The notes below the pieces were generated by a model. It saw only the letters and a program-made list of their open reading frames with translations, ran no database searches and was not told the DNA's origin. From positions 1 to 44,017 of the forward strand of contig DATMBG010000013.1 in assembly GCA_035559535.1 (NCBI GenBank): 44,017 nucleotides of DNA, read 5' to 3'. The translations under genes and the position numbers were made by a program. Shown here piece by piece: positions 21,514-34,164 of the stretch. Source of the DNA: Candidatus Limnocylindrales bacterium. GTDB lineage: Bacteria > Moduliflexota > Moduliflexia > Moduliflexales > JAUQPW01. Numbering within the stretch: position 1 is the first letter of the stretch; every line of letters starts with the position of its first letter.

Positions 21514-21543
21514 ATTCTACGAGAATGGAGAAGAAAGTGTCAA
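21514..21543 (-). promoter_or_regulatory. Promoter of the peptide-importer operon
   Basis: On the minus strand TTGACA (21538-21543), an 18-base spacer and TAGAAT (21514-21519) form a sigma70-type promoter. An A/T-rich tract precedes the -35 box, and the outer end of a MITE lies 16 bases upstream. Confidence 0.6.
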
Positions 21544-21559
21544 ATTTTTTTGAGGAGAT

Positions 21560-21692
21560 GTAACTGTAACAATTTAGTGGGTGTCACTTTTTCTGTCTGA
21601 ACACCTCCCTGGCCCCCCTCTAATCCCCCTGTATACGGGGGGAAGGGAGGGACGGGGGGGACTTCAGCAGCAGTCCCACGTCAGTCCCCTTT
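21560..21692. mobile_element. MITE, copy 1 (one end lost)
   Basis: It begins GTAACTGTAACAATTTAGTG followed by TGTCACTTTTTCTGTCTGAA, matching the L end of the complete copies at 31743 and 34012. The central palindromic C/G-rich part ends with CTTCAGCAGCAGTCCCACG. The opposite terminal repeat is missing before the Nudix gene, so this copy is truncated and diverged. It encodes no protein. Confidence 0.8.
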
Positions 21693-22719: not shown

Positions 22720-23295
22720 ATGTTACCTAAGAAAGATGTGACTCTGAGAGATCTTAAGTTAAGTAGGGCCAGAGGGGATTTTGATTTATTTTCCCAGGTT
22801 GTAACCAAGTACTTTGGAAGCATGATGATGTATGCTATCCGAAAATATTATTGGTTAAGCGAAGCAGATGCCGAGGATCTTGTGCAAGAGGTTTTCAAAG
22901 AGCTTTGCGAGGTGATAAATCAAGAGGTGAGGGAAAAGGAAGCTCCCGTGGATAAATGGCTTTTTAAGCGTCTTAACCAGCGGTGTCTTAACCATTTAAG
23001 AAATTGGAGGATAGCTTCAAAAACTGAGGTTCTAGAGCCGAATTTTCCCGTAATAGATGGAGGGCTGTTCCCAGCACCGGATGAGATGATCGAGGGTGAA
23101 ATCGCCGGGTTCCTCAGGGAAGGTGTCCATAAACAGCTTAGAGGGAGGACTCAGGAAGTTATAAAACTATATATGGAAGGATTATCACAAAAAGAGATTG
23201 CCGAGAAGCTCCAGGTTAGCTCTGCCCGGGTATCTGTACTTATGCAAAAGGGAATCTATAGGTTAAAAAAGTGGTTACAAACCCAGGGTTTTTAG
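22720..23295 (+). CDS. ECF-type RNA polymerase sigma factor
   Basis: A 191-residue sigma factor with only regions 2 and 4, as in the ECF group. Region 2 (residues about 15-90) contains DLFSQVVTKYFGSMMMYAIRKYY and the DAEDLVQEVFKEL motif that contacts the beta-prime subunit. Region 4 (about 130-188) has the helix-turn-helix LYMEGLSQKEIAEKLQVSSARVSVLMQKGI. It would direct polymerase to a specific promoter set when released from an inhibitor. The next gene encodes a zinc-finger anti-sigma-like protein, and the one after that a Lon-like/STAND protein. Confidence 0.92.
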   Translation: MLPKKDVTLRDLKLSRARGDFDLFSQVVTKYFGSMMMYAIRKYYWLSEADAEDLVQEVFKELCEVINQEVREKEAPVDKWLFKRLNQRCLNHLRNWRIASKTEVLEPNFPVIDGGLFPAPDEMIEGEIAGFLREGVHKQLRGRTQEVIKLYMEGLSQKEIAEKLQVSSARVSVLMQKGIYRLKKWLQTQGF

Positions 23296-23402
23296 GGAAA
23301 AGGTTAACTTTTTTAAAGCGGTTTTGTTTGTTATATAAGTGCGGAGAACCGTATTTTAAACTTAATGAAGAAGATAAAATACAAGGGATAGAGGGAGGCT
23401 GA

Positions 23403-24077
23403 ATGAAATCGATGAGCTGTGAAGTGTTCATGGGACGATTACAGCAATATTTTAGAGGAGAACTATCGGACCAAGATGAATTAGAGATGGACGATCACCT
23501 GGATCGATGTGAGGCATGTACTGAAAAGCTTAAGGCTTTGCTGGAATCAGAGGAGCACTTCTTACTCTCCCCGTGGGAGCAGACTCAAATCTTACAACAG
23601 CTAAGAGCGTCTTATACGCTAGATCCGGATCGGGAACAAAAAGGAATCGAGAAAGTCCTTGCAAGCACTCGACCGTTCTGGTCGGAACCGGCGAAAATGT
23701 TGTGGGCGGCTGCGAATCTATCCGGAATAGATGAAATTCGAGAGCGAATGGGTGCCGAATTTGAAAAACGAGGTCCCATTCACTTAGAGTCCTATACGGG
23801 AGAGCTGTATGTCCGGGATCAGAATTCGGCTATCCTGGAGTTCAGGAAAGAGGGCAGGCCGGCCTTAGATCTTAACGGAAAAACCATTGAGTTCTTTGCA
23901 ACTAAACCGCCGAAAATGGGAGAACTATCCCCTCGCCTTTCCGAAACAATTCAAGCCGGGATTGTTGTGATCGATTTTACAAAACTGGGACTCTCCCTGG
24001 AGGATTATGCAAAGGTACATTTTAAACTTTATCTGGATGAATCCACCGTTATGGAGGGAAGTCTGGGAGAAGAATAA
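23403..24077 (+). CDS. Zinc-finger (ZAS/zf-HC2) anti-sigma-like protein
   Basis: A 224-residue soluble protein. The N-terminal 45 residues carry a ZAS-type zinc motif: Cys6, then His32, Cys36 and Cys39 (DHLDRCEACT), matching Cx25Hx3Cx2C, the signature of zinc-binding anti-sigma factors. No transmembrane helix follows, so it is cytoplasmic. Residues about 50-115 are helical, and the C-terminal 100 (HLESYTGELYVRD, ILEFRKEGRPALDLNGKTIEFF) look like a beta domain. The start has GGGAGG upstream. Its place directly after an ECF sigma gene indicates that it sequesters that sigma factor. A flexible stretch around residues 60-80 would be a plausible proteolysis site, which is inference. Confidence 0.8.
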   Translation: MKSMSCEVFMGRLQQYFRGELSDQDELEMDDHLDRCEACTEKLKALLESEEHFLLSPWEQTQILQQLRASYTLDPDREQKGIEKVLASTRPFWSEPAKMLWAAANLSGIDEIRERMGAEFEKRGPIHLESYTGELYVRDQNSAILEFRKEGRPALDLNGKTIEFFATKPPKMGELSPRLSETIQAGIVVIDFTKLGLSLEDYAKVHFKLYLDESTVMEGSLGEE

Positions 24078-24217
24078 GTCTTTGGCCGGTTTTAGATCTC
24101 ATCAAGTCTAATAAAAGATCATAAAAATCCAGGAATGTCTGTGGGAACACCAACATCTTTGGGAGCGCCGATGTTTCTGGAAGCGCAAGCAGCTTGCCGG
24201 CTTGTCTTGTTTATTTG

Positions 24218-27200
24218 ATGATGAAAGGTCATTTCGGTCCATTTCAAACCTTCCTGGAACGTTTTGACCAGGCGCTCAAAGAGGCCAAACCTTTAAAGCT
24301 TCAGAATTGTGCCATCAGGCCGGAATTCTTATCTCTCCTGAGTCTTGAGAGGCTTATAGAATTTCACAATCTGTTAGAAGAATCACCGTTGGCTTCCTAT
24401 TTGGATCGAAAAATTATCCAGAAGCTCCAGGCCGAGATTGTTTATCGAGGATTGGTTAAAATTCCAAGAGATTTCAACGTTTTTAAGTCGTTTGTTCAAA
24501 AACAATATCCCAAAGATGCCCTTACCTTATCCCTGGATAGACTCAGCCAGATCGTCCAGACCCCTACAGACTGGATGCAGCAGGAAATTGCCTTTTTGTC
24601 AGAGCTTCGGCAACTTAGAGAACTGGGGAGCCGGTTCGAAGAAGTTCTTACCAAAATCCTCTCGACCTTCTGGCCCGAAACAATCCAAAATAAGGCTGTT
24701 ACTCATATCCTGTTTGTGAGAAGTAAGCAACTCCACAATCTGGTGGTAGAGAACTATGTACGCCCTGCCATCGTTCGTCGGATTGCCACAATTGGGAATC
24801 CTGCCGGGGAAAAGATCTTTGCCACTTTAAGCAACCTGGGAGAGGAATTCGAGGAAACCGTCCAGGGGATTCAATTCAACTTGATGTCTCAAAACCTACT
24901 GGAAACCCGTCTTGAGTATGAATTTGATGATTCTCTGATTTCTTGGACCGACTTCTATGGGGAAGGGCGATCTGCCGGACTTGCCTTTGCGTATCTGGCT
25001 TTAGCCTATCAGGAACCTCTTTATCGAAACCTCGGCCCCTATCTGGCCTGTTTTGGCTCTTACAAAGACGGTATCATCGGGCGGGTGGAACAGATTCGGG
25101 AGAAAGTCCTTGCGGCAAAAGAAAGTGGAATTCGGGTATTGGTAATACCGGAAGATAATATCCCGGAGATCCAGAATGATAGGGAAGGGTGTAGGGTTAT
25201 AAAATATCGTTCCGGTCCTGTTGGAGAAGCGCTTAATTTTGTCGCCCAGGAGCTCACCCGGTTAGTGGACGGCCTTCCGGAAGAACTGAAGCCCGTAAAG
25301 GGGCGGCATCCCTTCTACCAGGTTGGATTAAAAGCGGGTCCGGGTATCGTTTCGTGGGAACTGGTACAGGAACGTAGCCGGGGCTTTGTAGGCCGCAAGG
25401 AAGAAGAGGAGGAACTACTCCGATTCCTTATTCAACAGCCCAGGGGTTACTTATTTGTAGAAGGGGATCCCGGTATCGGTAAGAGCGCTTTGCTTTCCCA
25501 ACTTATTCAGGATCTACTCGGAGAAGGGGATAGGGAAGGTCGCCCACCGGATTTGTTAGAACTTGTGACCGGGCTTGGAAAACAGGGTCTTACGCTGGCT
25601 TTCCACCTCTGCTATGCAGGGAATAGAATCAGCATAGACGTACCGAGGATTCTTTCCTCTCTGATGCAACAGTTGGCCGTGCAGGGTGGTCAGCACACTT
25701 TTATACCACCGGAACGCTCTTCCCATGCACTTTTAAATCTTGCACGTGCTGTGGTAGCCCAACGCAAGGGGAAGGTTTTGATCCTCATAGACGGGATCGA
25801 TGAGGCCCTTTCCGTTCATCCTTCTCATCGGCATACGGCTATTCTTGAGACTTTCCTTCCAGGACATCTTCCGGATGGGGTATTTATACTCATCTCGGCC
25901 CGGCGGGGTGTATTACCGACTATTCCCAATCCCTTTATTCCATCCTTCCGGTTGGAATTGCGGGGTCTTCCCTCTGAATCTATCCATCAACTACTCTTTG
26001 AGACCCTAAACAGGGTAGGCAGACCGATCAATCTTTCTTCCTTTTCAGAGAAGGATATAGAAGCCGTAAGGCGGGTCTCAGCCGGTAATCCCCTCTATAT
26101 AAGAATGTTGGCTGAAGACCTGATACAGGGACGACTGAGGATGGACGGGGCCCATCAACTCCCGCTGGGTGTCGAAGGGTACTTCGAGGATATCTTCCGA
26201 AGGCTTTGTGTGAACTCTCGCTGGGCAACCTTGCGAGATTGCCTTCTCTTGTTGGCAGTTTCACGGGATTACCTCTCGGTGGATCAGGTACGCGCTATCC
26301 TGGACCTGTCCTGGATAGAAGCTCAAGAAGCCATAGAAGGAGAACTTCAATCGATCTTGATTAAAAATACGACTACCTCCGAGGTTTTGAGCTATCAGCT
26401 CTTCCATGAGAAGTTTCGAGAGTTTCTTGTGAACCTCTTCTTGGGAAAGCTACCGGAAGTTGTTTCGCGACTCAATCGTCACCTGGTTCGGCAGGCTCTA
26501 AGAATCCCTGCCATGGAGGCAGTCCTAGAACCGGCCCATCTAACCCGGGTACGCCAGCAGTTACTTACCTACTGCCGGCGCTGGCGTGAGACGGGAGATG
26601 CTTATCCTCTCCTGTATCTGCCCGGTCACCTTTACGAGACGGACGCCGGTGAGGAGTTGGAAGCCTTGCTCCGGAAGACTGATTTTCTCGAGGTGAAGCT
26701 GCGACGCCTGGCAGATCCCTTCCTGGCAGCGGAGGATATCCGGTATCTCACCCTGGTACTTCTAAAAGGAGGTCGGGACCAGGATGTGGTGGAACTAGCC
26801 CTCACAGAAAAGGGTTTTCAGCGAGATGGTATTGTCTTGGCCCTGCGAGGAGCCGGACCGAACTATACCCTGCAGATCCATGGAATCGTAAATGCGTTAA
26901 TAACCGTCCAACCCTCCGATTTGTCCCCTTTTCAGAGGATGCAATTCCGATGGTCGCGATACTTCCTGTCCCATCCCCAGGTCCCGGCCAGCATCCTTAA
27001 TGCGAGACGTGCGGCCATCAAGGTAGCTTACTCCTTGGGGATGGATGAAGTGTTGGTCCAGGCAGCACAGGAGGATTCCCAGGTTGTACGGGTAATGCTC
27101 ATCCCCTACCTGTACCACTTTTGGAAAGAGCGTAGAGACCGGGGTTGGCATTTGATACAACACCTGTGTAGCAGACCCAGATTATCACAACCCTGGAACC

Positions 27201-28393
27201 TGTGGCGATTACTCGAAACCCCTATAGGAGTATCCATTGTCATCCTCAGCTACCATTTCGATGAGCCGGAGGTTGTAGAGCAGTTGAAAGAGTGCTGGCA
27301 GGCTAATTCCCGACGTTTATTCCATATACCTCCGGATATGGGTCGGTTACACAAACTCTGGCTTCAGACATTCTGGGGTGGACTGATCTTCATACTTACC
27401 CAGATTCTGATGAGGTTCCTGGCAACTCAGCCCGAGTTTCAACCCATCAATCTGGTAGAGCTCAAAGATGCTTTTCTCCGTCCGAACCCGGAATACCAGA
27501 AGCTGGTGAGGGTACTGGAATGCCTGGAAGATCCAGACTCAGGTTTCACCCAGGCTTTAGAAGTACTATTAAGCCGCAATACTTCCTTTGACGTATATTT
27601 AATGATAGCCCTGGAATGGACCTTCATCTACCATGGTTCACGGGATCCAGGAGGCGTCCTGGCTGCACTGGATCGTATCCACCGGGAAGGCTGCTCATGG
27701 TTCAGGCAATCGGCCCTGTTTGTAGCTTTCCATACCTTGGACAAGGCCCGGCGTGTTGAAGACGAGTGGCTGGAGACCTATGCCCGTATGACCCGGGAGA
27801 CGATTCGATCCACCCAGGCAACCTTTCAAACGGCAAAAAGAACCTACTCTTTGCTCCCCCATATGGCCTGGGCGGAGGTCGTCTTCGATAAACATCGTCC
27901 TGCCGGACGCGCCCGCTTTATTCCAGAATTTTTAAGGGATGCCATTGCTTCCGGCCATATCGCCTACGCCCGGCGTACCATCCTGGCGGGGGTCGTCCTC
28001 TCCCTCATCTACCGTCGCCATCAACTGGCCTTGGATGCCCTGCGCAGTGCCCTGGAGGTCCAGGATGATCGGCTTCAAGATCTCCTTATAAATGCCCTGG
28101 CAAACATTCGATTTTATGAACAAGAAACTGTAGACCGCTTCCTGGAACACCAGGATGCCAGAGAACTGGCCAGGCGGGTCGCCTCCATCACTCCTACCAT
28201 TTTGTTCGGTCATATCCAAAACTGCTTCGATGAATTCTTCTATCATGGAATAATCCACTCGGATGATTTTCGAACTGAAGTCGTCGGAGCCCTTCGATAT
28301 AGACTCCAGGCTCAAAGCCCAACCCAATGGCTCCGACATGTCGTCAAACGATACGTGAATGCCTTTTTGGGTGAGAAACTTTTCCCGATGTAA
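24218..28393 (+). CDS. Lon-protease-like domain fused to STAND NTPase with helical repeats
   Basis: A giant cytoplasmic protein of about 1390 residues (numbering below is from an in-frame TTG at 24194; the ATG at 24218 is residue 9). Residues 1-240 are helical. Residues about 247-350 match the Lon S16 protease fold: GEGRSAGLAFAYLAL (Ser260 aligns with the Lon nucleophile), then REKVLAAKESGIRVLVIPEDN, but the catalytic Lys position reads Arg302. A STAND-type NTPase follows: GRKEEEEELL, Walker A GDPGIGKSALL (424-434), Walker B VLILIDGIDEA (528-538), RGLPSESI and the GNPLY motif of the winged-helix arc. Residues about 700-1399 are helical repeats, probably the sensor. No clear ribosome-binding site was found. 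Confidence 0.75.
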   Translation: MMKGHFGPFQTFLERFDQALKEAKPLKLQNCAIRPEFLSLLSLERLIEFHNLLEESPLASYLDRKIIQKLQAEIVYRGLVKIPRDFNVFKSFVQKQYPKDALTLSLDRLSQIVQTPTDWMQQEIAFLSELRQLRELGSRFEEVLTKILSTFWPETIQNKAVTHILFVRSKQLHNLVVENYVRPAIVRRIATIGNPAGEKIFATLSNLGEEFEETVQGIQFNLMSQNLLETRLEYEFDDSLISWTDFYGEGRSAGLAFAYLALAYQEPLYRNLGPYLACFGSYKDGIIGRVEQIREKVLAAKESGIRVLVIPEDNIPEIQNDREGCRVIKYRSGPVGEALNFVAQELTRLVDGLPEELKPVKGRHPFYQVGLKAGPGIVSWELVQERSRGFVGRKEEEEELLRFLIQQPRGYLFVEGDPGIGKSALLSQLIQDLLGEGDREGRPPDLLELVTGLGKQGLTLAFHLCYAGNRISIDVPRILSSLMQQLAVQGGQHTFIPPERSSHALLNLARAVVAQRKGKVLILIDGIDEALSVHPSHRHTAILETFLPGHLPDGVFILISARRGVLPTIPNPFIPSFRLELRGLPSESIHQLLFETLNRVGRPINLSSFSEKDIEAVRRVSAGNPLYIRMLAEDLIQGRLRMDGAHQLPLGVEGYFEDIFRRLCVNSRWATLRDCLLLLAVSRDYLSVDQVRAILDLSWIEAQEAIEGELQSILIKNTTTSEVLSYQLFHEKFREFLVNLFLGKLPEVVSRLNRHLVRQALRIPAMEAVLEPAHLTRVRQQLLTYCRRWRETGDAYPLLYLPGHLYETDAGEELEALLRKTDFLEVKLRRLADPFLAAEDIRYLTLVLLKGGRDQDVVELALTEKGFQRDGIVLALRGAGPNYTLQIHGIVNALITVQPSDLSPFQRMQFRWSRYFLSHPQVPASILNARRAAIKVAYSLGMDEVLVQAAQEDSQVVRVMLIPYLYHFWKERRDRGWHLIQHLCSRPRLSQPWNLWRLLETPIGVSIVILSYHFDEPEVVEQLKECWQANSRRLFHIPPDMGRLHKLWLQTFWGGLIFILTQILMRFLATQPEFQPINLVELKDAFLRPNPEYQKLVRVLECLEDPDSGFTQALEVLLSRNTSFDVYLMIALEWTFIYHGSRDPGGVLAALDRIHREGCSWFRQSALFVAFHTLDKARRVEDEWLETYARMTRETIRSTQATFQTAKRTYSLLPHMAWAEVVFDKHRPAGRARFIPEFLRDAIASGHIAYARRTILAGVVLSLIYRRHQLALDALRSALEVQDDRLQDLLINALANIRFYEQETVDRFLEHQDARELARRVASITPTILFGHIQNCFDEFFYHGIIHSDDFRTEVVGALRYRLQAQSPTQWLRHVVKRYVNAFLGEKLFPM

Positions 28394-31733: not shown

Positions 31734-31910
31734 GTTTTTTGTGTATCCGTATCCATTTAGTAGGTGGAAAAAGAAACACCCCCCTGGCCCCCCTCCAGGA
31801 GGGACTGACGTAGGGTTGCTGCTGCTGAAGCCCCTCCTGGAGGGGGGCCAGGGGGGTGTTCAGACAGAAAAAAGTGACCCCTACTAAATGGTTACAGTTA
31901 CGTTTTTTGT
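31734..31910. mobile_element. MITE, copy 2, with 9-bp target duplication
   Basis: The element (31743-31901, 159 bp) has terminal inverted repeats of about 24 bp: GTATCCGTATCCATTTAGTA at the left, and at the right the complement of GTAACTGTAACCATTTAGTA. The inside is a large C/G-rich palindrome centred on the CTGACGTAGGG-TTGCTGCTGCTG part. It is flanked by the exact direct repeat GTTTTTTGT (31734-31742 and 31902-31910), which marks insertion with a 9-bp duplication. No transposase is encoded. Confidence 0.9.
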
Positions 31911-33992: not shown

Positions 33993-34011
33993 TGAATAAT
34001 TTTTCCAATAA

Positions 34012-34164
34012 GTAACTGCAACAATTTAGTAGGTGTCACTTTTTCTGTCTGAACACCCCCTGGCCCCCCCTCCAGGGGGGACTGACGTGGGGTTGCTGCT
34101 GCTGAAGTCCCCCTGGAGGGGCAGAGGGTGTTTCTTTTTCCACCTACTAAATTGATACAGATAC
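34012..34164. mobile_element. MITE, copy 3
   Basis: A 153-bp element with terminal inverted repeats GTAACTGCAACAATTTAGTA and, at the other end, the complement of GTATCTGTATCAATTTAGTA (about 24 bp with three mismatches). Its interior matches copy 2, including TGTCACTTTTTCTGTCTGAA and GGTTGCTGCTGCTGAAGTCC. The flanks TTTCCAATAA and TTTCCATAA are nearly identical, consistent with a decayed target duplication. No protein is encoded. Confidence 0.88.

Follow-up and report, generated by a model that had tools for sequence, protein, structure and literature searches.

A Lon-like NACHT/STAND protein encoded beside an ECF sigma factor and an anti-sigma-like protein in Candidatus Limnocylindrales: a candidate protease-gated sigma switch

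Introduction

Three adjacent genes in a Candidatus Limnocylindrales genome encode an ECF sigma factor, an anti-sigma-like protein with a zinc motif, and a giant protein that joins a Lon-like domain to a STAND NTPase. This arrangement raises the question of whether the three products act together as a switch, in which a sensor activates a protease that frees the sigma factor from its inhibitor. Our original prediction, made from the DNA alone, proposed such a chain from sensor through NTPase, Lon-like domain and anti-sigma factor to sigma factor. Here, we examine each protein and search related genomes for comparable gene pairs. We place the probability that the three genes form a protease-gated sigma switch at a little under 60%.

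The locus and its surroundings

The DNA analysed (hereafter the window) is a stretch of 44,017 nt from Candidatus Limnocylindrales bacterium (genome G000; assembly GCA_035559535.1, contig DATMBG010000013.1, positions 1-44,017 of the forward strand). As originally described, three consecutive genes lie on the same (+) strand, at 22720-23295, 23403-24077, and 24194-28393. The genes do not overlap, and are separated by gaps of ~107 nt (sigma/anti-sigma) and ~116 nt (anti-sigma/giant). Such spacing would suit another explanation in which there is no shared pathway and an ordinary ECF sigma/ZAS pair (e.g., a redox-sensing pair of the RsrA or ChrR kind) adjoins an unrelated STAND conflict protein, a reading that we regard as unlikely on the comparative evidence below.

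Most of the flanking genes have housekeeping functions (transporter, aminopeptidase, MoaE, TerC). Among the ORFs scanned in the window, no recognisable defence island surrounds the triad and no cas genes were found; a CRISPR repeat array is likewise absent from the window. The gap at 23296-23402 is about as conserved between the window and its sister species as the coding parts are, and is possibly a regulatory leader. Dispersed repeats of ~60-80 nt also occur (21543-21620 and 33995-34072; 31775-31834 and 34052-34111), with a C-rich segment CTGGCCCCCC; these are possibly small mobile or regulatory elements.

The sigma factor and the anti-sigma-like protein

The first gene (22720..23295, +) encodes a protein of 191 aa with the composition of an ECF factor, that is, sigma-70 regions 2 and 4 only in ~190 aa (Sigma70_r2 5e-7, r4_2 5e-8, TIGR02937 2e-18), which upholds its original identification.

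The second gene (23403..24077, +) encodes an anti-sigma-like protein of 224 aa with an N-terminal zf-HC2 domain, a helical middle and a predicted beta-rich C-terminal domain. The zinc motif, C-x25-H-x3-C-x2-C, spans residues 6-39 (23418..23519, +; zf-HC2 6e-7) and consists of C6, H32, C36, and C39, exactly as first read from the DNA. The H-x3-C-x2-C signature, the upstream Cys and the position of the gene beside that of a sigma factor are those of a ZAS protein, and the motif is expected to be the sigma-binding zinc motif. The highest Kyte-Doolittle mean over 19 residues is only 1.08; we therefore expect no transmembrane helix, and the earlier description of the protein as soluble holds. An AlphaFold model places strands at residues 126-220 (pLDDT 61-83 from about residue 131), and a Foldseek search with this model returned weak FN3-type matches alone, none below 1e-3.

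Two observations on this protein are compatible with an ordinary sigma/ZAS pair. It weakly matches the RsrA and ChrR models, and about a dozen zf-HC2 proteins are encoded in the same genome, mostly with ordinary neighbours; the window locus is the only one of these with a Lon-like neighbour.

The NTPase and the C-terminal region of the giant protein

The third gene (24194..28393, +) encodes a protein of ~1,390-1,399 aa composed of a helical N-terminus, the Lon-like domain, a NACHT/STAND NTPase and a helical C-terminus. Its start codon, a TTG at 24194, is uncertain: the open frame extends back to 24125, and ATG codons in the same frame occur shortly after the TTG. The NTPase (residues ~398-640; 25385..26113, +) matches Pfam NACHT at 420-605 (1e-11) and has an intact Walker A (GDPGIGKS, residues 424-431, 25463-25486), an intact Walker B (VLILIDGIDE, residues 528-537, 25775-25804) and a NACHT-type acidic motif, in agreement with the Walker A/B STAND NTPase and long helical C-terminus originally proposed. 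The closest model in the defence library is Avs1b (2e-10, residues 511-748). This likeness is limited to the NTPase region, the NCBIfam score being 29.7 against a cut-off of 1500 for the full-length protein. No SAVED domain was matched on the giant protein in Pfam, NCBIfam or PADLOC.

The helical C-terminal region (26114..28390, +), the proposed sensor, is the most conserved part of the protein, with a dN/dS of 0.09 over the last 399 residues. Against 385 genomes it gave weak matches (1e-4 and 9e-4) to kinase-STAND proteins of one other genus and nothing else. These matches (L107:6085-9750 and L108:322-3984; genomes G204 and G063) hint at one sensor common to different effectors, and we note them as a lead only.

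A diverged Lon-like domain that retains a Ser-Lys dyad

The candidate protease domain occupies residues ~181-350 (24734..25243, +). Pfam Lon_C scored just 0.029, below the cut-off, and other routes were therefore used. Profile-profile comparison (hhalign) with 13 Lon protease domains gave a score of 67.8 (probability 96.6); 100 column shuffles reached 22.5 at most, and the reversed alignment 15.3. When the first 399 residues of the giant protein were searched against 385 genomes across Bacteria, Lon proteins from tens of them matched at ~256-333. Similarity to Lon (S16) is thus above chance, and the original call of a Lon-S16-like segment stands, with a narrower core (~255-330) than was proposed; the upstream half of the domain is weakly alignable. 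AlphaFold modelling of residues 1-399 from a two-sequence alignment gave a mean pLDDT of 46, mostly 23-45 across the Lon region, which is too low to weigh for or against a Lon fold. The protein is not a canonical Lon, which has its own AAA+ Lon ATPase upstream of the protease domain, whereas the NTPase here is of the NACHT/STAND type and lies downstream.

The matched core contains a catalytic-type serine, Ser260 (24971-24973, in the context GEGRSAG), and a lysine, Lys304 (25103-25105, in the context QIREKVLAAKESG), at a spacing of 44. We also considered an Arg in place of the catalytic Lys, with IREK read as LKEK. This was dropped because the motif of the solved Archaeoglobus fulgidus Lon, GGVTQKIEAA, carries Lys at the second position only, which aligns with K304.

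A Lon fold need not imply proteolysis. The domain could be a scaffold of the RadA/ComM style, with the STAND protein controlling the anti-sigma factor by binding (partner switching), and Lon-fold domains without protease activity do occur in this genome. The strong divergence of the domain, as seen in its Lon_C score and in a dN/dS of 0.31 that exceeds that of the NTPase, would fit such a role. Yet the dyad is lost from a RadA-like and a ComM-like protein encoded by this genome (named from size and match), which makes its retention here informative: Ser and Lys, with their SAG and EK contexts, are kept in the giant protein, and both residues are kept in the sister species. Ser and Lys are also present in the Lon-like domains of all five further loci described below, and we consider a purely structural role quite improbable.

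Conservation in the sister species

A sister species is represented by the MAG JZ-2 (L002/L003), with ~90% protein identity to the window. There the triad keeps its gene order, and the flanking genes are conserved too, so retention of the triad says little by itself. Values of dN/dS between the two species are 0.147 for the sigma factor, 0.164 for the anti-sigma-like protein and 0.175 for the giant protein, similar to those of the neighbouring genes; therefore all three genes are maintained under purifying selection and are not decaying. The exact combination of sigma factor, ZAS protein and Lon-NACHT-helical protein was found in the window and this one sister species only, and its confinement to one genus counts toward the absence of a shared pathway.

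Lon-like sensors recur beside anti-sigma-like genes

We compared four genomes of the phylum, including two relatives from the order of the window (G002 and G003), and collected zf-HC2 neighbourhoods in these two and in the window genome. Half of the six zf-HC2 loci of G003 have a gene for a large Lon-like protein directly downstream: L068 (953 aa, Lon-like with NB-ARC and TPR), L070 (1,571 aa, Lon-like with nSTAND1 and WD40), and L071 (730 aa, Lon-like with TPR, with a clear ECF sigma factor and a zf-HC2 protein encoded ahead of it). These three loci were found through zf-HC2 and so are not independent of it. A profile built from just the L068/L070 Lon-like domain recovered two more, which are independent: L076 (G003:C15, L076:7518-10223; 901 aa, Lon-like with TIR [TIR_2 2e-25] and a helical C-terminus) and L077 (G002; 1,126 aa, Lon-like with nSTAND1 and WD40). 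The L076 protein combines Lon-like and TIR domains, and thus two possible effectors, in one chain.

zf-HC2 is absent from L076 and L077. Their Lon-like genes lie directly downstream of a gene encoding the C-terminal beta domain of the L068 and L070 anti-sigma-like proteins, with a further regulator-like gene also upstream. Across the four genomes this beta domain was matched exactly four times, in every case by the gene immediately upstream of the Lon-like protein of L068, L070, L076 or L077. The Lon-like assignments exceed their shuffled controls both for this four-member family (33.0 vs. 21.5) and for L071 (35.5 vs. 21.7). Overall, the five further loci are non-orthologous, and in each the Lon-like sensor gene is directly downstream of an anti-sigma-like gene.

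The first gene of these sets is more variable. It encodes a clear sigma factor only in the window, the sister species and L071; the match in L077 is weak (TIGR02985, 0.004), and no sigma match was recognised for the first genes of L068, L070, and L076. In the place of the sigma gene, L068 (L068:7311-8186) and L070 (L070:7088-7849), both in G003, encode two proteins that are related at 27% identity, have CxxC-type motifs and match nothing in Pfam or NCBIfam; they could be transcription regulators of another kind.

These gene pairs count against the suggestion that the sigma/ZAS pair and the STAND protein are unrelated neighbours: a Lon-like sensor lies beside an anti-sigma-like gene at five other loci, one of them in a CRISPR locus, and directly downstream of half of the zf-HC2 genes of G003. 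Conserved adjacency had been proposed as a check on the original prediction; the pairing of Lon-like sensor and anti-sigma-like gene does recur, whereas the exact triad has no counterpart outside the genus. Recurrence at five anti-sigma-adjacent loci supports a relay with interchangeable sensors, mostly outside CRISPR systems. Together with the retained dyad, it also strengthens the proposed chain from sensor to sigma factor, and the original interpretation is partly supported; the neighbourhood of the window locus does not suggest a defence setting.

Common descent of the window system and those of L068, L070, L076, and L077 is unproven because the sequences are too diverged. The window Lon-like domain reaches an hhalign probability of about 1 against the four-member family, and neither it nor the anti-sigma-like protein gives a convincing alignment beyond the motifs. 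They may represent one greatly diverged module, or similar modules assembled more than once by convergence. The N-termini of the window and L071 proteins gave a weak blastp match (E 0.03-0.06), which we set aside since its register does not fit that of the catalytic Ser. In wider searches, neither the Lon-like domains nor the anti-sigma-like protein matched plasmids or viral contigs, and the four-member profile, run without a positive control, had no match in 244 genomes of another phylum. The L071 Lon-like region matched a single protein in 385 genomes, a canonical Lon in G181.

One of these loci lies within a type III-B CRISPR-Cas system (L071/L097/L098; G003:C3, ~1-40000) that includes cas10, cmr1, cmr3, cmr4, csx1, a CARF-HD-type gene, cas1, and an array of ~148 repeats. 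The presence of an ECF sigma factor, a zf-HC2 protein and a Lon-like-TPR protein inside this locus makes it resemble the Calp system, with the same ECF sigma factor, anti-sigma factor and Lon-type protease. No SAVED domain was recognised in the L071 set, in which TPR takes the place of the SAVED domain of CalpL.

Relation to known systems

In the Calp system, CalpL cleaves the anti-sigma factor CalpT and CalpS is released (PMC11417357). The window locus shares with it a Lon-type domain N-terminal to the sensor module, anti-sigma and ECF sigma genes together, and the proposed release of sigma by cleavage; it differs in having neither SAVED nor a CRISPR locus, with NACHT-STAND and helical repeats as the sensor. 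In CASP/Craspase (Cas7-11, Csx29 TPR-CHAT, Csx30, and CASP-sigma), Csx30, the inhibitor of CASP-sigma, is cut by Csx29 (PMC10028731). There too a protease is fused to repeats and its substrate inhibits an ECF sigma factor, but the protease is a caspase-like cysteine protease of the CHAT type with RNA-guided activation, unlike the Lon-like Ser-Lys domain with a STAND NTPase found here. Caspase-EACC2 loci, coupled to ECF sigma factors and DUF1822, likewise combine a constant protease domain with variable C-terminal domains (PMC8195603); they use a caspase in place of a Lon-like domain, and a DUF1822 TPR protein in place of a zf-HC2 anti-sigma factor.

Avs1 (AVAST type 1, with the protease-STAND protein Avs1b) and bNACHT proteins also have a protease-like domain, a STAND NTPase and a long C-terminal sensor. 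The giant protein has a Lon-like domain and no Avs1-type protease, matches Avs1b in part, and apparently has a sigma factor as its output. By analogy with protease-effector Avs proteins, the Lon-like domain could instead cut itself or many cell proteins and cause death or arrest, leaving the sigma pair to regulate expression of the giant gene. Avs1b is the nearest defence family to the NTPase, and tight transcriptional control would fit a toxic product. We find this very unlikely, as it leaves unexplained both the varied sensors adjoining an anti-sigma-like gene and the likeness to Calp and CASP, in which the substrate is the inhibitor of a sigma factor (PMC11417357, PMC10028731).

A Lon-like STAND protein combined with a sigma pair did not appear in our literature search, which was thin on subscription journals and returned the CRISPR systems above; this accords with the original statement that no system with the exact combination had been described.

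Proposed mechanism and significance

In the protease-gated switch that we favour, the zf-HC2 protein would keep the sigma factor inactive in the resting cell, as expected from its family. The helical C-terminus of the giant protein would bind an intracellular cue, perhaps a phage or stress protein, as in Avs and bNACHT proteins. Oligomerisation driven by NTP, for which the intact Walker motifs would allow, would then gather and activate the Lon-like domains, and these, with their intact dyad, may cut the anti-sigma factor, probably between or within its zinc and C-terminal beta domains. The freed sigma factor would redirect RNA polymerase to a response regulon. We infer the cleavage, the trigger and the regulon by analogy. 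We think it somewhat more probable than not that the logic is that of CalpL-CalpT-CalpS, with an NLR-like sensor replacing the cyclic-nucleotide sensor.

More tentatively, and with somewhat less than even odds, the loci described here may belong to a mostly CRISPR-independent class of NLR-like systems, for immunity or stress, that combine a constant Lon-like protease with swapped sensors (NACHT-helical, nSTAND1-WD40, NB-ARC-TPR, TIR-helical, and TPR) and whose output is transcriptional, by sigma release, and not death; Calp would be one sensor variant. There is a fair chance that the combination of a Lon-like STAND protein with a sigma pair is part of a broader modular class.

To our knowledge, most described STAND or NLR-like immune proteins of bacteria end in killing or degrading. 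If the proposed switch is correct, proteolysis would couple a sensor to a sigma factor and so give bacterial innate immunity an inducible branch that works through gene expression, with a logic analogous to NLR-driven transcription in eukaryotes, and the rare Calp relay of CRISPR systems would be joined to a wider modular family.
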